From a virus, in IMG/VR virus record IMGVR_UViG_3300009001_000090, positions 1 to 24,537 of that record: a stretch of 24,537 nucleotides of DNA. The stretch is one strand, 5' to 3'. Below the pieces are notes generated by a model that saw only the letters and a list, made by a program, of their open reading frames with translations, ran no database searches and had not been told where the DNA came from. Shown in pieces: positions 3,962 through 16,696 of this stretch (positions are counted from its first letter, which is position 1; the number at the start of each line of letters is the position of its first letter). The position numbers and the translations under genes are program-made.

Positions 3962-5398
3962 ATGTCGGCAGGACTTGACAAATTGGCCGCACAGGTTGAT
4001 TTTGAGATGGGCCGCAAGGACTTCAAATACTTCTTCGAGGAAATCTGCGGCAAGTTCGACCAAAAGAACCCGTGGATTCTCACCAAGTTTCACCAAGAAT
4101 GGTATGACCTCTCCGAGAATAACAACAAAACCTGCATCATCGCCAGCCGTGATCACGGGAAATCCGTGTTTTATCGTGTGTATCTCCTATGGAAAATGGC
4201 TTACAACCCTGGGACTGAGGTTCTATTTTTCTCGCACAGTCAGCACCAGTCCATTGAACACATGGCGAAAATGAACGAATTGATTGAATCAATCCCTGCC
4301 TTACAACACCTCAAGCCAGCACGTGGATGGGCGAAGCAGAAGTTCAAGTTCACCAACAAATCATCCATCTCGGCTATGTCCGTTGGAAAGGCAGTTCGTG
4401 GGGCGCACCCTCAAATCGTGGTTCTTGACGATATTTTGTCAAGTGAAGCCCAAACGCAACTCAAGCACATTTCATCGTGGTTTTACACCGCCCTTCTCCC
4501 TGTTCTCCACCACACCGCCCAACTGTGCATTGTGGGAACGCCATTTTCCTATACCGATCTCTATTCCGAATTGAAGAAACTGAAATCGTATGCGGTTCGA
4601 GAATATCCCGCCATCAATGAGCAAACAAACGAACCGTTGTTTCCTGAACGCTGGTCGTTAGACGCATTGAATCAACGGCGAAACGACATGACTTCAATTG
4701 CTTTCACACGTGAATACCTGTGCAAACCGATTGCCAGCGATGCGAGTTTGTTTCCTGAAGAGGTGCTGGAACGGGTCAAGGATGAAGAATTGTCCCTTTC
4801 GTATTATCCACGTGATGGGGAATCCTACAACTATTACATCGGTTGGGATCCTGCAATCTCGGCGGATCGGCGAGCCGACTACACGTGCATGATGGTGATT
4901 GCCGTTGATGAAAACAAAAACAAGCACGTTATCCACACACACCATGAGAAGGGGATGGACTTCTCATCACAAATTGACAAAATCATTGAACTCAATGCTC
5001 GTTTCAATCCTGTTATCATTGAACTTGAAACCAACAACTTTGCGATGGCGTTTAATCAAGTGCTAAACGAAATCAGCGATTTGCCGATAAAACCATTCAA
5101 TATGAGCCGAATGAAGAAAGAGGCTTTAATTCATACCCTCCAACTGCAATTTGAACAGGGCAAGTTGGCGATACCCTACAAAGACGAAGGAGGGACACGG
5201 CGATTGATGAACAACCTCTTGACCGAACTCTCCATGTTCACCATGCTTGATAACGGAAGGATGGAAAGTCTGGGGGGTCACGACGACATGGTTATGGCCC
5301 TTGCTCTATCTGTTCAGGCTACGAAGGAATACCGTGATAGCATCGTGATTTTGGATGCTGAGGTTTGGCAAAACAGGTTGGGGTGGGCAAATGTTTGA
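3962..5398 (+). CDS. terL: Terminase large subunit (ATPase and nuclease)
   Basis: This is the DNA-packaging motor, which uses ATP to pump DNA through the portal and cuts concatemers. The 478-residue length is typical. A variant Walker A, SRDHGKS, lies at residues 62-68, Walker B IVVLDD at 152-157, and a coupling motif CIVGTPF at about 189-195. The RNase-H-like nuclease half shows its acidic triad: D296 in GWDPA, E354 in VIIELE and D441/D442 in GGHDDMVMALAL. The start is supported by GGTGAT at 3952-3957, four bases upstream. The stop overlaps the next gene by 8 bases. No classical small terminase is recognised beside it. Identification is secure from motif order. Confidence 0.96.
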   Translation: MSAGLDKLAAQVDFEMGRKDFKYFFEEICGKFDQKNPWILTKFHQEWYDLSENNNKTCIIASRDHGKSVFYRVYLLWKMAYNPGTEVLFFSHSQHQSIEHMAKMNELIESIPALQHLKPARGWAKQKFKFTNKSSISAMSVGKAVRGAHPQIVVLDDILSSEAQTQLKHISSWFYTALLPVLHHTAQLCIVGTPFSYTDLYSELKKLKSYAVREYPAINEQTNEPLFPERWSLDALNQRRNDMTSIAFTREYLCKPIASDASLFPEEVLERVKDEELSLSYYPRDGESYNYYIGWDPAISADRRADYTCMMVIAVDENKNKHVIHTHHEKGMDFSSQIDKIIELNARFNPVIIELETNNFAMAFNQVLNEISDLPIKPFNMSRMKKEALIHTLQLQFEQGKLAIPYKDEGGTRRLMNNLLTELSMFTMLDNGRMESLGGHDDMVMALALSVQATKEYRDSIVILDAEVWQNRLGWANV

Positions 5399-6635
5399 GA
5401 AGCGACTTGAAGGCACGTATGGCGTGGAGTCGCCAGAAGATGCGATTCTTAAGGTTCTTGACTCAAAACTCATTGACATGGAAATCAAAAACAACATGCA
5501 AGAGAAGAAGTTGTTAGACCAAAAAAAGAAAGAAGCCACAAAGAAACCAGATGAGGCGGCAGCAGGAAGCCCACGGGACGATGCGGGAATTGAAGGATTT
5601 GATGCACCAAATATGGGCGGTGGCGACACCCAACCTGGAACTGCCGTTGAAACAGGGACTTCTCCTGTTCCCGTGAGCAAAACGTGGTTTGTTGATAACT
5701 TCGGAATGCAGGGCAACGAAATTGTTGAGTTGTTCATCAAGTCGGGTCGAGAAGAAATGGCCTCAATTATTCAGCCGTTAATTGTTCAAGAGCGCATGGC
5801 CTTGCTCAAGTCATTCCCTTCGGTATCTCCCGATCTCGCCAACACTTTGCCCTTCACCGATTTTGATTGGGAAATGTTGCAGAAGAACACCGAATCATTG
5901 GAAATACCGTTTAGGCGTTTTGTCAAGAATTGGAATGATGGAAACGAGGATGCTTACGATATTTGGTCAAATCGAATAACCAAAGAAGAACGTTTGAGCC
6001 TACCTGAAAGAAAGACATTGCACAAAGCACAAGAGGTGCTTGAAAAGCATGGTAGCATGAACGTTCAATCGCTACAATCGCATGGGGTGTCGGGAAGCAC
6101 GACTAAAATTGCGATGCTGATAAAATCGCATGGCTTCCTTTATGACATTGAACCAATGGGTTATGGTTCAACGACCAATGATCGGGGACTGTTTTATGGA
6201 CTCAAGAAAAATGACATTTTCGTAAAAGACGCAGGGGCATTGATTGGCGACCTCTATGAGATGGGGGGCGGGATTGAAATTAGCCCACGTGGAACTCCAC
6301 GCATGATTTTGCCCTTCAACTCAAGGGTATGCAAAGAATACGCCAATGCTCTCAACTCCGAATTAGGTGTGCGAGGCATTATATCCGAAGGCAACGGCCT
6401 TGTGATTGAAGGGGAGGCGTCTGTCGCTAAGGCGATTGATGCTTCATTGCCTCATTTGAACGAAAAGAAATCGGAGGTTGTCGTCTTGAAGAAAGCACTT
6501 GAGGACGATGAACACGCCATAATGTGTTTGACGTATGACAAATCAAAACCACAAAAACAGGTCAGCCTGTTAAAATCATGGAACCTCTCGATTGAAGCAT
6601 TTGAGAAAATGAAGGAGGCGGTTATCAATGGCTGA
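5391..6635 (+). CDS. Winged-helix plus degenerate LAGLIDADG-like protein
   Basis: The product is 414 residues; the start at 5391 (overlapping the terminase stop) is preferred over 5355, which would overlap it more. A charged coiled-coil-like N-terminus (residues 25-60) and a Gly/Pro linker precede a helical region. Residues of about 205-250 (MNVQSLQSHGVSGSTTKIAM) resemble a winged helix-turn-helix. Residues of about 280-357 resemble a single LAGLIDADG homing-endonuclease repeat: GDLYEMGGGIEI aligns with AGLFDADGGVSI, followed by the usual strand, helix, strand and a terminal SLPHL. The metal-binding acidic position is Gly, so cleavage activity is unlikely. A DNA-recognition role next to the terminase is inferred. 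The fold assignment is by eye and moderate. Confidence 0.75.
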   Translation: MFEKRLEGTYGVESPEDAILKVLDSKLIDMEIKNNMQEKKLLDQKKKEATKKPDEAAAGSPRDDAGIEGFDAPNMGGGDTQPGTAVETGTSPVPVSKTWFVDNFGMQGNEIVELFIKSGREEMASIIQPLIVQERMALLKSFPSVSPDLANTLPFTDFDWEMLQKNTESLEIPFRRFVKNWNDGNEDAYDIWSNRITKEERLSLPERKTLHKAQEVLEKHGSMNVQSLQSHGVSGSTTKIAMLIKSHGFLYDIEPMGYGSTTNDRGLFYGLKKNDIFVKDAGALIGDLYEMGGGIEISPRGTPRMILPFNSRVCKEYANALNSELGVRGIISEGNGLVIEGEASVAKAIDASLPHLNEKKSEVVVLKKALEDDEHAIMCLTYDKSKPQKQVSLLKSWNLSIEAFEKMKEAVING

Positions 6636-8442
6636 TAGGGAGAGGATGGAACGTCTGTTCTCCGCCATTGGCGTTGATATGGAACGGCACACTACCCCCA
6701 TGCCCACGATGCCTCTATTTCAATCGGGGATTCAAGAACCTCCGTTGTTGCAGGGGATTACAATTCCTGCTCTTTACGCTGCGACGTTTGAATGCGTAGT
6801 GTTGCGGTCTATCCTCAACCACCTCTCAGTTGAAACGTTCCGAAAAGGCTACGGTTGGAAGCCGAAGTTCGTTGTTAAATGTAGGGAATGCGAATCAAAA
6901 TATCATCAAGAAGTGGAGTCATGTCAGTCCTGTGGGGGCGAGGTTCGAAAGGCAGACCGAAGCGAATTGGAATACGCTGAGGTTTTGCTTGAGAGCAAAA
7001 ACGGCATGATGCAAAACTTCGTGGAAATCATGAAGGAAGTTGAAATGGACTTGAACATCGTTGATGATGCCTACATCATTCTTACGAAGGAATACTTCGT
7101 GGACCCAGATACGAAGAAGGTCATGTTTTACCGTGTGAAAGAAATCACACGTGCCGACCCAATTTTCATGCGTATGCTTGCCGATAAGCGAGGTGTGCGT
7201 GGCGGGAGTCAATACACCAGCCTTGTTGATCGGACATTCCGCACCAGCGACCCAAAGGACAAATGCCCAACAACGGGGATGCCTGTCGTTCCTATCCATT
7301 ACATGAACCTCGCAGGTGTTGGTAAAGGACAGGTCTATACCGAAGGCGAGGTTATTCACCTCAGCAAATGGTCGCCATCCAAATTGTATGGGCGCAGCCC
7401 TGTTGCGACCATGTGGCGGCAGGTGAACACCCTCATTGCGATGGATAACTACGTTTATTCAGCGTATCAAAAGAAACGTATGCCCCGTGGCGTGATGGTG
7501 ATTAAATCATCCAATATGGAAACCGTTGAGCGAACTGCACGAAACATTCAGGAACACCTTGAGCGTGATCCGTCCTACATTCCAACCATTGGCGTTGAAA
7601 CTGAATCAGGTCGTGGTGGCCTTGAATACGTGCGAATGATGGACACCCTCGAAGAACTGCAATACATTCCAATCAAGGACGACATTCGCCAGCGTATCGC
7701 TGCATTCTTTGGCGTGTCCAACGTTTTCATGAATGACGTGTCAGGTGGTGGACTCAACAACGAAGGAATGCAAATCGTGGTGAGCAATCGTGCGGTTGCT
7801 TTTGCTCAATCCATTTACAACCGCATTTTGTTCCCTCAACTTGTGGAGGCATTTGAAATCACGGAATGGGAATTGGTTCTCAACCCACATGAGGAAGAGG
7901 ACGAAATCATGCAACTCCGACGTGATGAGATGGCTATTCGCAACATGATGCAAATGAAACAGGCAGGATATGAGGCGACTTTGCGTGATGGTATAGACGA
8001 CAAAATCCTCCACTTTGACTTCAAGCAACCCGATCCACAGGAGGTTGCTGCGGCTCAAGCCGCCCAACAACAGGCTCAACAGGGCGGTGGCGGAGGCCAA
8101 GCCCCACCCGTCCAAAAAACCGATGAATTGCTTGACGATCCAAACATGATGTTCAAGCGAACCAACTTCGATGCGAGCAGGGGGTCAGTCCCCTTTGCTG
8201 ATTCCATCGCTACAACTGCTGGAACGGGGTTGCCTCCTTTGAGAACCATTAGTCAAAACACCAGGAATAGCGGTGGGTCAAGCCCCGACATGATTCGGAG
8301 GGTTGAGGGTGCGCCCACGGGTGCGTCCGTGAAAACCGATAAGCGAGAACACAAATCCCCCCAAGAAGAAGCGATTGACCGAAGAATCAAAGAAACCGAA
8401 AAACGCAACGGTTTGGGTGATTCAAAGGGCAATAGTCAATAA
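6628..8442 (+). CDS. Portal protein, HK97-like, with zinc-ribbon insertion
   Basis: This is the dodecameric portal at the capsid vertex, the channel for DNA and the docking site for terminase and connector. At 604 residues it is within the family range. Family features include GEVIHLSKWSPSKLYGRSPV, the long stem-like helix around IRQRIAAFFGVSNVFMNDVS (GGGLNNEG follows), and a C-terminal helical region ending in a Gln/Ala/Gly-rich disordered tail. An unusual insertion near the N-terminus carries a zinc ribbon: C85, C88, C99 and C102 (CREC...CQSC). The start overlaps the upstream stop by 8 bases, with GGAGG upstream. The last 90 residues are low complexity. Identification is strong from sequence pattern and from position after the terminase. 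Confidence 0.92.
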   Translation: MADRERMERLFSAIGVDMERHTTPMPTMPLFQSGIQEPPLLQGITIPALYAATFECVVLRSILNHLSVETFRKGYGWKPKFVVKCRECESKYHQEVESCQSCGGEVRKADRSELEYAEVLLESKNGMMQNFVEIMKEVEMDLNIVDDAYIILTKEYFVDPDTKKVMFYRVKEITRADPIFMRMLADKRGVRGGSQYTSLVDRTFRTSDPKDKCPTTGMPVVPIHYMNLAGVGKGQVYTEGEVIHLSKWSPSKLYGRSPVATMWRQVNTLIAMDNYVYSAYQKKRMPRGVMVIKSSNMETVERTARNIQEHLERDPSYIPTIGVETESGRGGLEYVRMMDTLEELQYIPIKDDIRQRIAAFFGVSNVFMNDVSGGGLNNEGMQIVVSNRAVAFAQSIYNRILFPQLVEAFEITEWELVLNPHEEEDEIMQLRRDEMAIRNMMQMKQAGYEATLRDGIDDKILHFDFKQPDPQEVAAAQAAQQQAQQGGGGGQAPPVQKTDELLDDPNMMFKRTNFDASRGSVPFADSIATTAGTGLPPLRTISQNTRNSGGSSPDMIRRVEGAPTGASVKTDKREHKSPQEEAIDRRIKETEKRNGLGDSKGNSQ

Positions 8443-8471
8443 ATAGAAGGTTATGCGAAAGGTGAGCGAGC

Positions 8472-8810
8472 ATGTTTGACATTATCGAAAAGATGGACCC
8501 AATGGCCCGACGAGCATTGGCCGCAATTGAAGGCGTCCAGAAGGCAATCCAAGCGAATGACGCCGATAGCATCAGCGCAGGTATCATGGCTGCTGAAAAC
8601 GCTTTGGCTATGTTGAAATCTGATTTGGCCCTGCATGACCAACTCGCAAAATCAATGTCCAAAGCACCAACCGCAGAACGTTTCATGGGCGTTATTCCTC
8701 AATATGACAACACCGCTTCCGACTACAACGGGACTGAAAACGCAGTTGCTATGGGCGTAAGTCGGCATGGTCGTGCGACTGGCTTCTTTATGCCTCATAG
8801 GATTGTGTGA
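8472..8810 (+). CDS. Small helical head-module protein, unrecognised
   Basis: The product is 112 residues. The start at 8472 has AGGTGA about 7 bases upstream. The first 65 residues form an Ala-rich helical segment (ARRALAAIEGVQKAIQAND, then AAENALAMLKSDLALHDQL), and the last 40 are Gly/Asn-rich without helix. No family is recognised. It follows the portal by 29 bases and its stop overlaps the start region of the next gene. A head-accessory role is inferred from position only. Confidence 0.75.
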   Translation: MFDIIEKMDPMARRALAAIEGVQKAIQANDADSISAGIMAAENALAMLKSDLALHDQLAKSMSKAPTAERFMGVIPQYDNTASDYNGTENAVAMGVSRHGRATGFFMPHRIV

Positions 8811-8815
8811 TAACG

Positions 8816-9238
8816 ATGTGGAAAATGGATGGTTGGAAAAACCCAACGCAGCGAGCGCACATCTATGACATGCTCGCAAAGCAGAACCCCGTGACCTCCG
8901 TTTCAACCGCACCTGCGGCACAACTCATCAATGAGGTTGATAACATGATTCAAGAACTCGCCCAAAAATGCGGCGAGATGAACTCCCACATGTCCCAAGC
9001 AAGAGCCACGAATGTTGCATCCGAACCAACTATCGCTCTCCAAAAGAACATGGCCGCACTTGGAGAAAAAATCCTATCCTTGAGTCAAGACATCGCAATG
9101 ATTCGAGAAGCACACGCTTCAATCGCACAAATGCAACCTCTTGCACCAGTTCAGCCCAACGATCCAATGATGGCCTCGCAAGAGCAACAACCACCAATGA
9201 ACCCAATGGGCGGCGGCATGGGGGGCATGGGCGTATGA
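8816..9238 (+). CDS. Small coiled-coil head-module protein with Met/Gly tail
   Basis: The product is 140 residues from ATG at 8816; a GTG at 8807 overlapping the previous stop would add three residues. I prefer 8816 because TGTGAT lies four bases before it, the spacing used by other genes here. The N-terminus (MWKMDGWKNPTQRAHIYDML) is followed by long helices with heptad-like character (INEVDNMIQELAQKCGEM, then MAALGEKILSLSQDIAMI). The tail is a flexible Pro/Met/Gly sequence ending MGGGMGGMGV. No family is recognised. Its stop overlaps the next start as ATGA. Confidence 0.75.
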   Translation: MWKMDGWKNPTQRAHIYDMLAKQNPVTSVSTAPAAQLINEVDNMIQELAQKCGEMNSHMSQARATNVASEPTIALQKNMAALGEKILSLSQDIAMIREAHASIAQMQPLAPVQPNDPMMASQEQQPPMNPMGGGMGGMGV

Positions 9239-9549
9239 GCGAAGAACAGGAACAAATTGACATTCTCAAAGAATTGATTTCCGAAGTCCGTGTCCTCAAC
9301 CAGCGTGTTCAAGCACTTGAGGCTGAGAACAATACGTTGGCGAAGGCCATGAATGACCCTGAAATGCTCATGCGTAAGCAGGGCTGGAAGAAGTTCACCA
9401 CCCCTCATGCCGAAGAAACCTTTGACCCCTTGAACCGTCAAGTTCCTGTTGATAACACGCCCTTCTCAGGAAGTGGCGACCTATTCCTCAAGTCAAGAGA
9501 TCAACAACTCGAAGAATGGAAACAGGCTGAAATGGCGGTGAAGCAATGA
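9235..9549 (+). CDS. Small coiled-coil protein of the head module
   Basis: The product is 104 residues, starting at the ATG of an ATGA overlap with the previous stop. A longer in-frame reading from 8968 was rejected because it would run inside the preceding gene. Residues 3-45 are a clear coiled coil (EEQEQIDILKELISEVRVLN, then QRVQALEAENNTLAKAM). The rest is polar with a basic patch, GWKKF. No family is recognised. Translational coupling with its neighbours suggests stoichiometric production within the same virion substructure. Confidence 0.75.
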   Translation: MSEEQEQIDILKELISEVRVLNQRVQALEAENNTLAKAMNDPEMLMRKQGWKKFTTPHAEETFDPLNRQVPVDNTPFSGSGDLFLKSRDQQLEEWKQAEMAVKQ

Positions 9550-10682
9550 ACGGGCGTTGGTTTAATCCACTTGAAGAAACCCCTGAAGGTCGTTTGTTGA
9601 AAGACGTTCAAGACCTGTTGAAGTCGGTCAAGAATAAGGACAAAGCCGACCTTGACAAAGACGGCCAATTGTCGGGCTACGAAAAGAAACGTGCAAAGGC
9701 GATTGAGTCCTCGATGGCAAAGGATGGCTACAAATCAGATCGTGGTCAAAAGCCAGCACCAAAAATGCCTAATACAAAAGGCAACAAGAACGTTATCAAG
9801 TTTGATATGTCGGATAACTGCCCCCGTTGTGGTGCAAACCCCCATGAAGAATGCGGATTGCCTTCTGGACCTCATGACCGTATGAGAGCAATTGATTGTG
9901 TATCACACAACCCTGTTGCCTTTGATTCAAGGTTTGACGATATGCGAGAGGGCTACACCCTTCCAGAAGCAATGGACGACCTTCTCCGATCCGACGACAA
10001 AACCCAATACACCTGCAAAGAATGTGGAAGTGTTGAGATTTCAGGCGTGGATCAAAACCGCAAGTGCTTCAACTGCCGCATGGGTAAAAAACCTCCAAAG
10101 AACAAGGTCATTGGGACGCCTCCACACATGACAAAAGACATCAAAAAATACAGTCAAGAATCAAGTGTTGAGAACTTGTTCCCTCAATTCCAAAACGTGG
10201 ACGGTGGACAACCTGTGAACGCTCATGGATTTACCACCAATGGAACATACCCTGCAACAAATGACGGTCCGAAGAAGTCCATTGTGAGCGAGAACGCCAA
10301 AATACCTGCATACGCACAAAAAGGCTACACGGCCAAATCCAGCAGTTTGCACATGCACATGAATGATGCTGGCGGCACACGTGCTAATCCGCCAAACATT
10401 GACACCATCGAACAACGCCTTGCATCCTTAACCAAACATTCTGGCCGCAGCAATTTGGGCATGATTGGCGAGATTGAATCGCTGATAAAGCAAGTGAAGG
10501 ACAAAATGCCCAAAGAAAGACCAGTCCAAGTCAAAGATGAGGACGATGATTCAAACATGAAGATCTTTGCTCAAATCATGGGCGGAGGGGATCGGGATAA
10601 AGCATTCAAGAATTATGATGAATACCGTCGCCTTGAACGTGAAGGAAAATTGTCAGATGAGAAGCCTAAGAAAGATGATTGA
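9546..10682 (+). CDS. EF-hand loop and double zinc-site protein
   Basis: The product is 378 residues, starting at an ATGA overlap. Residues 35-46 (DLDKDGQLSGYE) are a textbook EF-hand calcium loop, with D at positions 1, 3 and 5, G at 6 and E at 12. Residues 92-114 (CPRCGANPHEECGLPSGPHD then RMR) match the phage-type zinc finger with C92, C95, C103 and H110. A second zinc ribbon uses C157, C160, C174 and C177. Residues 79-86 (GNKNVIKF) resemble a motif repeated in the protease gene. The C-terminal half is disordered and charged. The zinc finger is usually found in phage DNA-associated proteins; the role here is unknown. Position suggests a minor head component. Confidence 0.82.
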   Translation: MNGRWFNPLEETPEGRLLKDVQDLLKSVKNKDKADLDKDGQLSGYEKKRAKAIESSMAKDGYKSDRGQKPAPKMPNTKGNKNVIKFDMSDNCPRCGANPHEECGLPSGPHDRMRAIDCVSHNPVAFDSRFDDMREGYTLPEAMDDLLRSDDKTQYTCKECGSVEISGVDQNRKCFNCRMGKKPPKNKVIGTPPHMTKDIKKYSQESSVENLFPQFQNVDGGQPVNAHGFTTNGTYPATNDGPKKSIVSENAKIPAYAQKGYTAKSSSLHMHMNDAGGTRANPPNIDTIEQRLASLTKHSGRSNLGMIGEIESLIKQVKDKMPKERPVQVKDEDDDSNMKIFAQIMGGGDRDKAFKNYDEYRRLEREGKLSDEKPKKDD

Positions 10683-10696
10683 AGGTGGTCCTTTGC

Positions 10697-13600
10697 ATGA
10701 CAACAGAATTGGATAGGATTCGAACAGACGCAATCATTTCAATTCACAAAGCCTCCGAGTTTGATTTTGAAGAATACGTCAAGCACCTTCCTGCTGAGAA
10801 CATCAGCAAAGAGGACATGGCGACCATGCTTGGGGGTATGCAACCTGAGCCACCCCAATATCGGATGGTGAACCTTGATGCACCAATGGCCGTATCACAA
10901 ATGAAGTTGCCTTCGCACAAGGATTTCTTAGCGGGGCATACGAAGGTTTCAAACAACCCATTGACCGACTGGCCGATTGCCTCACCTGAGAATCAGTTCG
11001 GCAAACATCATCCATTTGGGATGGAGTCAAACAGTTGTCCTTTGCTTCATGGTGCAGCGTGGGGCGACCCTGCATACGCAGACCATTTGGCCCATGCTAT
11101 GCCTCATCTCAAGGACATTGCCGCACATGAACGGCGGATTTCATTTGACCCTGAACGTTATGGCGACCCCAAAGAAACGCTTCACGATTTGATGGTTCGG
11201 GATCGCAACCGATTCCGCAGTTATTCGGATGAAGAATACGCTCAAGGGAAGGTTGGTGAATGGAAAAAGCGGTTGGGGTTGCTGCCGTTTTTGTTTGGTC
11301 TTGAATATCAAACGGAGGATCAACGCCAGCATTTTTTGGATATTATCAAGGCAATGGCTACAAAGAAACACATGACCTCGCCAGATTCCAAGTTCTTACA
11401 AAACAAAATGCAAGAGAAGGCGGGTATCTCTTGGGGTCGAGCATTGCGTTCATTCCGAGCCAGGTTCATTCCCCTCCTTCAATGGTGGCAACGTGCAAGT
11501 GACCGACATGGGCCAGTTGCACCTGCTGAATCTCAGGGCGACTTGATGAAAGAAGCAAGTGCGGATATGCACTTTGTCAGCCCCTTTGTAGTGATGCCGC
11601 CTTCACAGATTGAAAAGTCGCACACCCACCATTGGTGGGACATTTTTCAGCCGTGGGGTGGCGTTGGCCGTGATTGGAAGTCGTTGCACGATATATTGCA
11701 GCAATCATACCCAGAAGTGTTTGACGGCGGGTGGATGGATGAGGCGTTGATGCACACATCATCATCTATGCTTGATTCTCACAACACCGATGGCGGAAGC
11801 CACTTCCCGCACCTCATCAACAATGATGAGGCAAAGGCATATCCCTCTCATGCCGCATTAAAGTCCAATTTCAAAGACGCCAATTTCTTTGAGAACCGAA
11901 GGGCAAATTGGAGTCATGCTTCAAACCTGCACTTCCTACACCCAAGCGAAGTTCAAGGTCAAGGGGGGCGCATGATTGTCCCATCCGACCAAATGATGTT
12001 GAGCCGCCTTGGGCGGTCTTTGTCAAATCAAGCCGACATGGGTTCGCCTCGAATCGGTATGTTTCGTGAAGAACACCCTTCGTCAAGTTCAAGTTATTGG
12101 GATAGCCACAATGCTTTGTTCGCTGCAAACGATATGCACTTGGGCAAAGTGATGAACAACATGGCCCAACAGGTCATGAAGCAATTTGGTTCTGGCGTCA
12201 TTAACCCTGCCGATCCAACCAATATGGAACAGGCTACGTTGGCCCGTGGAAACCTACAACAATTGGCCGCAGCCGCCGACTTCGCCATGAAGAAGGTGAA
12301 CATGGGAGAAGAATACCGAGCCTTAGCACCTCTCATGGAAAACGGCAACGTCGCAATGAAAATCAAATCAATTGGCCCTGTAAATCCAACTTCTTTTGCT
12401 ACAACCCCTCCCACTTACAACACAGGCAACACCCACCTTTGGGGCCATGAGATGCCAGCAAACCTCACGTGGAAGCATGACCCTCAAAGTGGGGGCATCT
12501 CCTTTGGAATGACCGAAGAACCGTTCAACGTTATGCAACGAACAGTTCATGAAAACAAAATCAAGGCGGTTCTTCCTTCTTTGCTTGATTCCAATGTGAT
12601 GCCTAAACAAAAGGATATTCACGCTTTATCGGCGTTAGACCATCGAGGGCTTTCCCCAATCGCCACGGGAAGTCTGTTGAAATCCGAGGATTATGAGCCA
12701 ACAGGCGTATTCAAAACCAAAATCATTCCAGCCTACACGATTCACAAATTAGACGACATGGATAAGTTGCGTGGTTTTTCGGGCGAATGGATTGTTCAAA
12801 AAATGCCGAAAGGAGAACGTATTTTTGTTGAAAAGAAAGGCAATCACCTCAAAGGAGGCAAATTGCCTGGTGAAGTCAAGAAAGAATTGCGTGAAATCAA
12901 AGGCGATTTCACCTTTGATGGGTATTTGGATGATGGAACGTTGCATGTTGTTGATTTGTTGGTTCACAAAGGAACAGATTTGCACCTTGAACCTCTTGAA
13001 GATCGCATCAATGCCTTGAGGACTCTCTATGATTCAACGAGTCATGTTCACTTCCCCATGCCCACGAATTGTGTGTCCACAGATCAGGACGGCCTCAACA
13101 AAGCAATTAGCAACTTTGATGAAAACGAATTGCTAATTCGTGATTCCAAGTCCACGTTCATGAAAGAGAAAGAGGTTCACCCCAAGTGGATTCGATATGC
13201 GAAAGAATCTATCTCAAAGGCATTTTACCCCCCAATGCCAGAAGTGGTTGTTTATCCAAACAAAATCAAGTTGTGCTATCCCTCCATTCTTGAACCTGTT
13301 ATTATCAAGGGTGCTTTTGACGGATTCGGATTTGACGTTGAAGGGGTTGAGGGCAACGAGGCCATGATGTTGAAGGCCATGAGGGACACCCCCCTGTGGA
13401 GTCCAGTCGCAATCAGTTTGTTGAAAGAAGGGGCTGCTGCGGCAGCATCGGGGGGCGGTTCGTCCTCAAGTGGTGGGACTTTCAGTTCAAGTGATGCAGG
13501 GGCATTCAACCCACTTCATTCAACCCCAAAACGAAAGCGACCACGTGAATTGAAGATCGCAAAAGAAACCATCCTACGTGCGCCATCCATCATTGGCGAG

Positions 13601-14134
13601 GATGAAGAGGGCGACAATGTGGCCGATACAATGAAACATGCTCGGCAAGCAATTACCGAGGATGATAAAGCCAAAACAACAGAATATCTGTTGGAAAACG
13701 TCAAGGGATTGAATAAGAAAATGCTTGAGATGTTCGCAGGTGAATATGGCCTTGAACGGACTGAGGAAGGCAAATGGACTGTCAATGAGGCCATTGACGA
13801 CGACATTATAGAGAACATGTTCCCACGCATGAACCGCATTTCACCTGATGGTGGGGCATGGGCTGGAATGCAAGCCGACATTACCGCACCAAGAGGACCA
13901 ACCGAATTGATTGAGGATAGCGGCACGACTTTTTACGATCCCAAAGAAGGTGAAGAAGTTGAAGAAATCCCAATGAAACATCTGCGAGTTCGTGATGAGC
14001 CATCTGGTGAAGAAGCCGTTGTTGATATTGAAAATGGTCGGGCGACTCTTCGAATGCCCCTAAAAACGCAACAGGAGATGGCTGATGAACAAGAAGTCCA
14101 AGCCGATGATAGGTCGGAAGCAGAAGAGATTTGA
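10697..14134 (+). CDS. Large head-module protein with DNA-ligase-like pseudoenzyme domain
   Basis: The product is 1145 residues from ATG 10697, which has AGGTGGTC six bases upstream; a TTG at 10679 is an alternative. Residues 1-670 are unrecognised, rich in His, Met and Trp. Residues of about 690-840 match the adenylation domain of ATP-dependent DNA ligases in motif order: EWIVQKMPKGERIFV (motif I region), FDGYLDDGTLHVVDLL at 740-755 (III/IIIa), ELLIRDSKSTF at 811-821 (IV) and HPKWIRYAK at 828-836 (V). By alignment the catalytic Lys becomes Met703 (Lys702 is adjacent), the KxDG Asp becomes Lys705, the motif III Glu becomes Tyr743 and motif IV EG becomes NE. Ligation activity is therefore doubtful. 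A Ser/Gly/Ala linker follows, then an acidic tail. It lies between a zinc protein and the prohead protease. Confidence 0.85.
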   Translation: MTTELDRIRTDAIISIHKASEFDFEEYVKHLPAENISKEDMATMLGGMQPEPPQYRMVNLDAPMAVSQMKLPSHKDFLAGHTKVSNNPLTDWPIASPENQFGKHHPFGMESNSCPLLHGAAWGDPAYADHLAHAMPHLKDIAAHERRISFDPERYGDPKETLHDLMVRDRNRFRSYSDEEYAQGKVGEWKKRLGLLPFLFGLEYQTEDQRQHFLDIIKAMATKKHMTSPDSKFLQNKMQEKAGISWGRALRSFRARFIPLLQWWQRASDRHGPVAPAESQGDLMKEASADMHFVSPFVVMPPSQIEKSHTHHWWDIFQPWGGVGRDWKSLHDILQQSYPEVFDGGWMDEALMHTSSSMLDSHNTDGGSHFPHLINNDEAKAYPSHAALKSNFKDANFFENRRANWSHASNLHFLHPSEVQGQGGRMIVPSDQMMLSRLGRSLSNQADMGSPRIGMFREEHPSSSSSYWDSHNALFAANDMHLGKVMNNMAQQVMKQFGSGVINPADPTNMEQATLARGNLQQLAAAADFAMKKVNMGEEYRALAPLMENGNVAMKIKSIGPVNPTSFATTPPTYNTGNTHLWGHEMPANLTWKHDPQSGGISFGMTEEPFNVMQRTVHENKIKAVLPSLLDSNVMPKQKDIHALSALDHRGLSPIATGSLLKSEDYEPTGVFKTKIIPAYTIHKLDDMDKLRGFSGEWIVQKMPKGERIFVEKKGNHLKGGKLPGEVKKELREIKGDFTFDGYLDDGTLHVVDLLVHKGTDLHLEPLEDRINALRTLYDSTSHVHFPMPTNCVSTDQDGLNKAISNFDENELLIRDSKSTFMKEKEVHPKWIRYAKESISKAFYPPMPEVVVYPNKIKLCYPSILEPVIIKGAFDGFGFDVEGVEGNEAMMLKAMRDTPLWSPVAISLLKEGAAAAASGGGSSSSGGTFSSSDAGAFNPLHSTPKRKRPRELKIAKETILRAPSIIGEDEEGDNVADTMKHARQAITEDDKAKTTEYLLENVKGLNKKMLEMFAGEYGLERTEEGKWTVNEAIDDDIIENMFPRMNRISPDGGAWAGMQADITAPRGPTELIEDSGTTFYDPKEGEEVEEIPMKHLRVRDEPSGEEAVVDIENGRATLRMPLKTQQEMADEQEVQADDRSEAEEI

Positions 14135-14145
14135 CCCTATTCCTT

Positions 14146-14153
14146 CATATAGG
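14146..14153 (+). promoter_or_regulatory. Possible archaeal TATA box before prohead protease
   Basis: CATATAGG lies in a 41-base intergenic gap and is centred about 27 bases before ATG 14176, the usual archaeal TATA-to-start distance. Transcription from it would be nearly leaderless, and the gene has only a weak Shine-Dalgarno (AGGA). There is no experimental or comparative support. Confidence 0.22.
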
Positions 14154-14175
14154 ATTACAGAAAGTCGTTAGGACA

Positions 14176-15519
14176 ATGGCGACCACCCTTGACCTTCACA
14201 CGGCATCGTGGAATGCCGAAGGTTCGGACTTTTTGTTGAAGTCCGTGGGTAGCGAGGGAGAACTCTATGTCGCTGGCTACGCTTCCGTTGATATGGTGGA
14301 CAAGCAGGGCGACAGAATCCCAACGAATGCTTTGAAGAAGGCATTCTCTCAATTCATGGGCAACAAAGCATTCCGAAATGTGCAGTTGGCTCATTCTGGT
14401 ATTCAGGTCGGTGAAGTTGTGGACAACCACACCGATTCTCAAGGCCGTTTGTGGAAATCCGAAGTGGACGACCACGGCCTCTTTGTCGTGTGCAAAATCC
14501 GCAACGACATTCAAAAAGCACGTGAAGTGCAAAAGCAAATCCGCAATGGCGATTTGCGAGCGTTCTCGATTGGCGGTCAAGCCTTGTTTCGTGTTAGCAA
14601 AACGACACCAGAACTTGGAAGCCATCGAGAGATCACCGATCTTGAATTGCATGAAATCACGCTATGCAAGAAAGGAATCAACCCCGAATCAACCTACACA
14701 ATACTGAAAATGGAAGATGATAGCATGACGAACACAGAAGTTTTGAACGAAATTAAGGCTGGCCTGAGCGAAGTTCTCAAAGAACTGAGCGAAAAAGAAG
14801 AAAAGAACACCACTTGTAGTGTGTGCAAAGAGGACGATTGTTCGGGTTGCACCAACAAGTCCTACGAGGAAGAGGCTGCTCTTGACTACATCACGACTCT
14901 TGAGAAGTTTGCTCATGAATCGGGTGTGGATTTGAACGGCCTTCGTGGTCACTTCGGTTTGGAGAAGGCTTACCTTCTCGAACAGGGTCGTGGCGGCTAC
15001 TCCCACCGTGGACAAGGTGATGAAGTCGGGTCTGGCGAGGACGCAACCGAGCCTTCCTACCCATCCCTCCCCTCCCCAAGTGGCAACCAAAACGTCATCA
15101 AGTCCCCAAGCGTTCCCAACATGCGAATGAACGCCCCCAAGGGCAACCAGAACGTTGTGAAGTCCTTGACTCCTGAGATGTTGGAGAAGGGCTACCGCAC
15201 CTACGCTGCCCTTCGTGATGAAGAAGCCGTGAAGGGCTTGGTCGAGAAGGAATGGCAAGACCGATACGAGGCTGAAACCGTCCATGCTCTTGAAGTCCGA
15301 AAGGCCAACGACGTTGGGGTTCAACTCAACGCTCTCCGTGAAGAGATCGCCATGCTCAAGTCCGAGAACGCATCCCTCCAAAAGAGCGAAGTCGCACCTT
15401 CCGCCCCCTCCACCTCCATTCGTGTGCCAACGCATGACGAGTTCGCCCAGATGGGTAGTGACCTCGACGGTTGGCGAGCAGCAGAAGCACTTGCTCAACG
15501 TGCATTGCGAGGCGAATGA
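14176..15519 (+). CDS. Prohead serine protease fused to scaffold-like C-terminus
   Basis: The product is 447 residues from ATG 14176; a TTG at 14131 overlapping the previous stop is less likely. Residues 1-180 match the HK97 prohead protease (U35) fold: YVAGYASVDMVDKQGDRI, a catalytic His in LAHSG (H73), the nucleophile in DLRAFSIGG (S131) and LELHEITL (E157/E160 region). The protease matures the procapsid. Residues 214-225 hold a four-Cys cluster, CSVCKEDDCSGC, that could bind zinc. Residues 303-310 and 323-330 are near-identical GNQNV(I/V)KS repeats. The C-terminal 110 residues are a long coiled coil (VQLNALREEIAMLKSENASL) typical of scaffolds. The capsid protein has no delta domain of its own, so this fusion probably supplies scaffolding. 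Confidence 0.9.
   Translation: MATTLDLHTASWNAEGSDFLLKSVGSEGELYVAGYASVDMVDKQGDRIPTNALKKAFSQFMGNKAFRNVQLAHSGIQVGEVVDNHTDSQGRLWKSEVDDHGLFVVCKIRNDIQKAREVQKQIRNGDLRAFSIGGQALFRVSKTTPELGSHREITDLELHEITLCKKGINPESTYTILKMEDDSMTNTEVLNEIKAGLSEVLKELSEKEEKNTTCSVCKEDDCSGCTNKSYEEEAALDYITTLEKFAHESGVDLNGLRGHFGLEKAYLLEQGRGGYSHRGQGDEVGSGEDATEPSYPSLPSPSGNQNVIKSPSVPNMRMNAPKGNQNVVKSLTPEMLEKGYRTYAALRDEEAVKGLVEKEWQDRYEAETVHALEVRKANDVGVQLNALREEIAMLKSENASLQKSEVAPSAPSTSIRVPTHDEFAQMGSDLDGWRAAEALAQRALRGE
15082..15165 (+). repeat. Two GNQNV(I/V)KS peptide repeats spaced 60 bases
   Basis: Codons at 15082-15105 and 15142-15165 encode GNQNVIKS and GNQNVVKS inside the protease/scaffold gene, exactly 20 residues apart. Synonymous third-base differences suggest protein-level conservation. 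Confidence 0.7.
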
Positions 15520-15530
15520 AATACTCAAAA

Positions 15531-15547
15531 GGAGATGATGAAAAATG
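15531..15547 (+). promoter_or_regulatory. Strong ribosome-binding site of capsid gene
   Basis: GGAGATGATGAAAAATG includes the Shine-Dalgarno and the start codon of the major capsid gene. The same 17 bases recur exactly at 16711-16727 before the next gene. Confidence 0.75.
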
Positions 15548-16696
15548 ACGCAAGGTTATATCCGCACAATTGAAGATATGGAACGCCTGTATTACGGTGC
15601 AGGTGCAGGAACGAATGCTTGGGCTTACTCAGGAACCGATCTGCTCAAGGCAGACAGTCCCCTGATGTCCTCCACGGCTGGAACTTATCAGGCGATTTTT
15701 GGCCGCAAGGTCTGGTCGCAACTGAACCAAGAGTTCAACGCCTTCTCCATCCTCCCCAAGAAGCCTTGGGAGAAGTCGGGATGGCGTGTCGTGACTGGCA
15801 AGCCCGACGATGCCGTGGGTCTGCCTGAGAACGGGACGCTTCCTGATTCCACCAAGCCAACCTTCGAAGAGGTTTCCACGAAACCCAAGACGGTTGCCTC
15901 CAAGTTCGACCTGTCCGAAACGGCCATGTTCCTTTCCGACAAGGATGATGGTTTGGGCGATGCAAGGGCCGTTATCAAAATGGAAATGTCCAAGTCCCAC
16001 GCTGAGAGCATCAACAAAATGCTTCTTCGTGATGTGAACACGACGGCAGGAAACTCCTTTGAATCCATTGATCGTGCTTTGTCCTCGTCCAAGATTGAAC
16101 TTGCTACCTTTACGGACATTGATTCGCTGGCAAACCACAACATGTATTCCCTCACCCGCAACACGGGGGCTGGAACACGTGCATGGTTTGACGCCAACGT
16201 GGATGCTGGAACTGGTGGCGCAGAACGCCCCCTCACCCTCAACGTCCTTGACGGCATGTTCCGTGAAGTCTGGGAACGTGGTGGTCAGCCCAAGGTCATT
16301 CTCACGGGCTACGACACCATCGAGAAAATCCAACAACTCTTGCAGCCTCAGCAGCGTTTCACCGAGATGAAGCGTGTCACCCCCTCCGTGAACGGCGTTC
16401 AGGGAATCCCAGGTATGGAAGGCGGCTTCGTTGTCGCCACTTACAACGGCGTTCCCATCATCCCTGCAAAGGACGTTCACGCACCATCTGGTGGCCTCAG
16501 CCGCATTTACATGCTCGACACCGACTACATGTATTTCTGCACCGCCAAGCCTACTCTTTACCATGAGTCAGGCATTGAAACGGGCGACCCCTTCGGCATC
16601 AACCGTCTGGGACAGGTCGGCCTCTTCCACACGATGGGCGAACTTTGGCAACTCTTCTATGGCGCACACGGCAAGGTCCGTGACCTAAGCGCATGA
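15545..16696 (+). CDS. Major capsid protein, HK97 fold
   Basis: This is the shell-forming subunit. The 383-residue length and features fit HK97-fold capsid proteins without a large delta domain: an N-terminal arm, an E-loop/P-domain-like VASKFDLSETAMFLSDKD segment, the spine-helix region ARAVIKMEMSKSHAESINKM, and an A-domain with PKVILTGYDTIEKIQQLL, FVVATYNGVPIIPAKDV and IYMLDTDYMYFCTAKPTLY. It directly follows the protease/scaffold gene. Codons are strongly biased to C-ending forms (TTC, CTC, AAC, GAC) compared with upstream genes, in keeping with high expression. The start is fixed by the GGAGATGATGAAAAATG site. Identification rests on pattern and context and is firm. Confidence 0.9.
   Translation: MTQGYIRTIEDMERLYYGAGAGTNAWAYSGTDLLKADSPLMSSTAGTYQAIFGRKVWSQLNQEFNAFSILPKKPWEKSGWRVVTGKPDDAVGLPENGTLPDSTKPTFEEVSTKPKTVASKFDLSETAMFLSDKDDGLGDARAVIKMEMSKSHAESINKMLLRDVNTTAGNSFESIDRALSSSKIELATFTDIDSLANHNMYSLTRNTGAGTRAWFDANVDAGTGGAERPLTLNVLDGMFREVWERGGQPKVILTGYDTIEKIQQLLQPQQRFTEMKRVTPSVNGVQGIPGMEGGFVVATYNGVPIIPAKDVHAPSGGLSRIYMLDTDYMYFCTAKPTLYHESGIETGDPFGINRLGQVGLFHTMGELWQLFYGAHGKVRDLSA

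Follow-up and report, generated by a model that had tools for sequence, protein, structure and literature searches.

The head module of IMG/VR virus record IMGVR_UViG_3300009001_000090 raises the question of why a protein encoded between the portal and prohead-protease genes should resemble a DNA ligase, and whether such a protein could still act as one. The stretch we analyzed (positions 1 to 24,537 of that record, hereafter the window) is a 24.5-kb fragment with a typical tailed-virus head module, in which the genes of the terminase, the portal protein, the large protein in question, the protease, and the major capsid protein lie on the plus strand. The module comprises a terminase large subunit (3962-5398; Terminase_6C, E-value 8e-12; phrog_38), a portal protein (6628-8442; Phage_portal, E-value 4e-13; phrog_18178), small genes, a protein with weak zinc-ribbon matches (9546-10682), the large protein in question (10679-14134), a prohead serine protease (14131-15519; Peptidase_S78, E-value 1e-10) whose gene overlaps the end of the preceding one, and a major capsid protein of the HVTV-1/SU10 type (15545-16696; SU10_MCP, phrog_24667) with 30% identity to that of HVTV-1. 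Among the small genes, the long ORF 8968-9549 seems to have a wrong start, since distant relatives align mainly from about residue 80 onward (near MSEEQEQ) and its first part overlaps ORF 8807-9238 in another frame. The large ORF is open for 1151 residues from a TTG at 10679, but starts most plausibly at the in-frame ATG at 10697 (residue 7 in the numbering used here), where homologues also start, giving a protein of 1145 residues.

A first-pass annotation, made from the sequence alone, had proposed that this protein contains a ligase-type nucleotidyltransferase domain that has lost its catalytic residues, and we found that the observation holds. Residues 694-843 reproduce the motif order of the ATP-dependent ligase adenylation domain, with the nucleotidyltransferase fold itself predicted at residues 699-842 (12773-13204), and all of the motif strings picked out in that annotation are present. 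The motif I region EWIVQKMPKGER (residues 703-714; 12785-12820) has Met709 at the catalytic Lys and Lys711 at the Asp, while its Gly and Arg are kept; motifs III and IIIa fall in FDGYLDDGTLHVVDLL (residues 746-761; 12914-12961), where Tyr749 replaces the motif III Glu; PLEDRINAL (residues 772-780; 12992-13018) corresponds to the helix after motif IIIa and matches the P..ER...L of real ligases; the motif IV region ELLIRDSKSTF (residues 817-827; 13127-13159) has lost EG and carries Arg821 in place of the motif IV Lys; and the motif V region HPKWIRYAK (residues 834-842; 13178-13204) keeps its Trp but not KxK. This register, taken from a profile-profile alignment, is the one given in the first-pass annotation. 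The closest known proteins are the ATP-dependent DNA ligases (PF01068 and its OB domain), including archaeal Lig, LigD, and human LIG1/3/4.

Single-sequence searches of the whole protein against Pfam, PHROGs, PDB and INPHARED found nothing, so we asked whether the resemblance could be recovered from relatives. The domain cut out of relatives matched PF01068 (DNA_ligase_A_M) in 8 of 12 cases (best E-value 4e-4), and PF01068 passed its gathering score in five more distant relatives; searched record by record, PF01068 finds this domain with the motifs in the right order. T7 ligase and its relatives were considered as a yardstick but were too divergent, and we used 20 Thermoplasmatota ATP ligases instead. 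A profile of the family core scored 33.95 against these by hhalign, whereas 100 column-shuffled versions reached at most 21.3 (mean 14.0) and the reversed profile 13.7. An AlphaFold2 model built from 29 homologues has the strand and helix order of a ligase nucleotidyltransferase followed by OB-like strands; it is of moderate confidence (pLDDT 67.8 overall, about 80 in the core; TM-scores about 0.45), yet the best 35 Foldseek matches in the PDB are DNA ligases or repair complexes that contain one (best E-value 7.5e-7), and the exceptions lower in the top 50 are vaccinia capping-enzyme entries, which belong to the same superfamily. The named viral matches are also mostly ligases and capping enzymes, while the best BFVD match, A0A516LT18, is an unnamed 827-residue viral protein (E-value 1e-10) that scores better than any real ligase and is possibly another member of this family. 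A predicted fold unrelated to the ligase superfamily had been named in advance as an outcome that would overturn the proposal, and the fold obtained is ligase-like.

As a control, the N-terminal 661 residues of the same protein gave a very confident model (pLDDT 86.9, pTM 0.87) with no PDB match (best E-value 1.4). This N-terminal region (residues 7-640; 10697-12598), which also has no Pfam match, is predicted to be compact and mostly helical with a beta domain at residues 547-620, and is apparently a new fold in a head-module protein. On the C-terminal side, the ligase-like region extends further than the first-pass annotation had placed it, into an OB-like beta segment reaching about residue 906 (residues 843-906; 13205-13396). 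The evidence for this segment is four strands and a helix at about residues 855-903 (model residues 216-264), Foldseek alignments of 270-300 columns that reach beyond the nucleotidyltransferase domain, and an OB-like sequence in magrovirus homologues judged by eye; this falls short of deciding whether a true ligase OB domain is present. The rest of the protein (residues 907-1151; 13397-14131) is a Gly/Ser-rich linker and an acidic C-terminal region, with a pI of 4.3 for residues 976-1151.

We next asked whether the loss of catalytic residues is peculiar to this virus. Scans of viral contigs gave 205 loci with the full domain (some contigs being retrieved more than once), representing 79 distinct sequences. 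In none of these is there an Asp at the KxDG position or a Glu at motif III (Tyr in 57, Val in 15, Phe in 6, and Thr in 1); the Lys column of motif IV is Arg in 79 of 79 with no conserved EG, and motif V is lost, its columns 839 and 841 being variable and hardly ever Lys. The catalytic-Lys column, Met within QKMPKGER in the window, is Lys in 53, Met in 21, and Val, Arg or Gln in five, with at least six changes between Lys and another residue on the family tree, and lies next to invariant Q707, P710, and G712. The Met noted in the first-pass annotation is thus a local state, but the residue is plainly not maintained. The domain is nonetheless under strong purifying selection (dN/dS about 0.05) and is the most conserved part of the protein, with 61-62% identity against 37-45% for the rest in far relatives. 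About 45 columns are at least 97% conserved, and a fixed set of residues (D747, D759, L760, L761, H763, D775, R776, R821, D822, S825, F827, H834, W837, and others) points to a maintained pocket or interface.

A scan anchored on the HVTV-1 capsid protein brought in 80 further loci, and in 55 of them a protein of 1.8-2.1 kaa (shorter where the contig ends) carries the same domain, located in the full-length proteins at about residues 1320-1710, with profile E-values down to 2e-42. Profile-profile comparison with the window's family gave a probability of 100 and an E-value of 4e-45 over residues 563-922, and an E-value of 2.4e-13 in the N-terminal part, so the proteins are orthologous in large part. 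In 54 of the 55 loci the gene lies immediately upstream of a 455-506-residue ORF, and the four of these ORFs that were tested are all Peptidase_S78 proteases. Motif I in this group is mainly SKWYDGKR, in which Asp-Gly is kept but the catalytic column is Trp, Tyr, Gln, His or Met and never Lys; among 45 distinct sequences the motif III Glu is absent in 45 (Ile, Val, Met or Thr), the motif IV Lys column is Arg in 42, there is no conserved EG, and the motif V columns are again variable. Homologues with an intact KxDG had likewise been specified beforehand as evidence against the proposal, and none of the 124 distinct sequences has one. The non-catalytic state is therefore common to both lineages, and the interpretation offered in the first-pass annotation, of a ligase fold retained without its chemistry between portal and protease, is supported, the location being confirmed and conserved in relatives; self-adenylation and nick sealing were not assayed. 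One refinement is that the domain is not confined to this virus but is a core component, within a 1.1-2.1-kaa protein encoded directly upstream of the prohead protease, of at least two lineages of Poseidoniales-type viruses, which are linked to abundant marine archaea.

Family B DNA polymerase, a mark of magroviruses, is encoded by 5 of 14 records of this second group but was absent from 14 records of the window's own family of up to 108 kb; as the window is itself a 24.5-kb fragment, these observations do not settle whether its virus belongs to the Magrovirales. The window's family fits the description of Poseidoniales viruses without their own replisome (Satyavativiridae, PMC13108676), an assignment that was not tested, the reference genomes ON649702, OR863078, and PP497040 not being part of our comparison. 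One homologue lies in a 106-kb contig (contig 2) of the Candidatus Poseidoniales single-cell genome AG-422-I20, linking the lineage and its head module to a Poseidoniales cell, although 72 kb of this contig read as N in the copy analyzed. That genome has an NAD-dependent ligase and no PF01068 match. Among 148 genomes of the same family we found no cellular homologue apart from this viral contig, a weak hit with an E-value of 0.007 not being pursued.

These results bear on the "ATP-dependent DNA ligase" reported for magroviruses (PMC10768690, PMC12999244, PMC10160649, PMC7318539), which ICTV profiles and a survey state that these viruses encode (PMC10768690, PMC12999244, PMC10160649) and which publications count as a replication enzyme. 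In the 14 magrovirus-type records the only PF01068 matches are in the head-module protein, five of them over the Pfam cut-off, and no NAD ligase was found; overall, the domain is the only PF01068 match in 36 records and none of 28 has an NAD ligase. A 2020 virome paper reports a single 678-base read on the group A magrovirus contig of Philosof et al., and the published group A ligase gene lies beside the prohead protease, which is exactly the position of the 1.8-2.1-kaa homologue. The reported replication ligase is therefore probably this pseudoligase, although we did not examine the original annotation. The ligase resemblance itself had thus been noticed before, whereas the inactivity and the structural-gene context had not, as far as the papers we consulted show.

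Because of the similar gene position, we tested whether HVTV-1 gp113 and gp115 might be homologues. The Druskaviridae HVTV-1 and HCTV-1 have homologous portal, protease, and major capsid proteins and large multidomain proteins between portal and protease (gp113-gp115), but these carry zeta-toxin kinase and ADP-ribosyltransferase domains and no ligase-like domain, and no significant match to gp113 or gp115 (10623-14564 of the HVTV-1 record) was detected. An 18-19-residue stretch of HVTV-1 gp113 (6230-9376; residues 502-520), YGMTEESMNLLHGATWPE, resembles FGMESNSCPLLHGAAWGD of the window protein at 47-50% identity; this is not significant (probability 3%), but may hint at a remote relationship. 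Three haloviruses with homologous capsid proteins (HVTV-1, HCTV-5, and HCTV-1) were among the loci of the capsid-anchored scan but were not among the matches listed for the domain. In HCTV-5, gene 109 in the comparable stretch encodes an ADP-ribosyltransferase that shares only its first 77 residues with HVTV-1 gp113, which suggests an exchangeable effector slot. The window's neighboring protein (9546-10682) was examined as a possible MuF protein and gave only the weak zinc-ribbon matches and no MuF match.

What sequence comparison and fold prediction establish is that the region is a degenerate ATP-dependent DNA-ligase core (nucleotidyltransferase plus OB-like segment), that the residues responsible for nucleotidyl transfer are gone or unconstrained in both lineages, and that the unit is a constant part, under purifying selection, of a protein with a fixed place in the head module. 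The remainder of our preferred explanation is inference, and we consider it about as likely as not: the protein would be a component of the procapsid or virion, at the portal vertex or inside the head, for which no isolate, proteomic or biochemical data are known, and the former nucleotide and DNA cleft would be kept as a non-catalytic binding surface, most likely for the packaged DNA (an end, nick or gap) or a phosphate-containing ligand. In this view Arg821-Asp822, Asp747, Asp759, Arg776, and the S-T-F/Y...HPKW segment would be its fixed residues, and the protein would help to hold or order the genome during packaging or delivery without sealing DNA. Binding was not measured, and several features weaken the reading of a nick-binding domain, which the first-pass annotation had raised along with DNA ends or a nucleotide: the domain is not basic (net charge -2 in the window and -7 to +5 in the family; charge does not discriminate), and by our reading of the alignment the DNA-contacting motif Ia and about 35 residues between motifs III and IIIa of real ligases are missing. 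The ligand could equally be a protein. A precedent is the inactive PBECR domain kept in the phage Mu head protein MuF (gp30) and suggested to bind RNA (PMC5512222), which is likewise a nucleic-acid enzyme fold retained without catalytic residues; that case differs in being a nuclease fold of a bacterial phage, and no DNA-ligase domain is mentioned for such proteins in the passages we consulted.

Of the alternatives, a docking-only role and delivery into the host are serious rivals. The one that survives best, though we think it unlikely, is that the fold is kept purely as an architectural or protein-docking module (for portal, protease or scaffold) with no nucleic-acid or nucleotide ligand. 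The near-neutral charge, the loss of all catalytic motifs, and the position of the gene next to the prohead protease are consistent with this, and most conserved residues could stabilize the fold or an interface; however, the most conserved strings (R-D..S-T-F/Y and HPKW, D747, D759) lie at motif III, IIIa, IV, and V positions, which line the nucleotide pocket in real ligases, suggesting a retained pocket. Less likely still is that the protein is packaged and delivered into the host with the genome as a polyvalent or MuF-type effector, the pseudoligase then acting in the cell, for example by covering viral DNA ends or nicks or by blocking host repair. Polyvalent proteins are described as head-packaged effectors (PMC5512222), and the kinase and ADP-ribosyltransferase proteins in the comparable stretch of HVTV-1 and HCTV-5 encourage this reading, but there is no detectable homology to HVTV-1 gp115, no MuF or known effector domain was found in the polypeptide (no Pfam domain besides weak PF01068), and effectors are usually variable and patchy, whereas this protein is present in essentially every relative with the locus intact. 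We regard an active nucleotidyltransferase with unorthodox chemistry, for example with Lys708 as a register-shifted nucleophile, as very improbable: Lys708 is Lys in 67 of 79 and 29 of 45 sequences, magroviruses keep Asp-Gly in SKWYDGKR, and one sister clade has KxEG, but 11 of 124 sequences have no Lys at all at residues 707-711, the motif III Glu is absent in 124 of 124, and motif V is lost. That the resemblance is chance or a fold-prediction artefact, for which only the lack of a single-sequence Pfam match and the moderate model confidence speak, can be all but dismissed given the shuffle control, the Pfam matches over cut-off in relatives, the uniform ligase hits by fold, and the clean negative for the N-terminal part of the same protein.

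Magroviruses are reported as ubiquitous in the surface ocean and are described as carrying a nearly complete replication machinery including an ATP-dependent DNA ligase. In the boldest form of our explanation, which is not excluded but which we consider unlikely, viruses of marine Poseidoniales have turned a DNA ligase into a permanent, non-catalytic component of their capsid assembly or genome-delivery apparatus that binds the ends or nicks of the packaged genome, and the ligase credited to the magrovirus replisome is this structural pseudoenzyme, so that these viruses depend on a host ligase to finish replication. If the only ligase-like protein is a dead ligase in the head module, the description of the replication machinery is wrong in this respect, and the viruses must use the host enzyme, such as the NAD-dependent ligase of the Poseidoniales single-cell genome examined, or an unknown one. 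It would also be a clear case of a DNA-repair fold kept for a very long time as a non-catalytic part of the capsid module.
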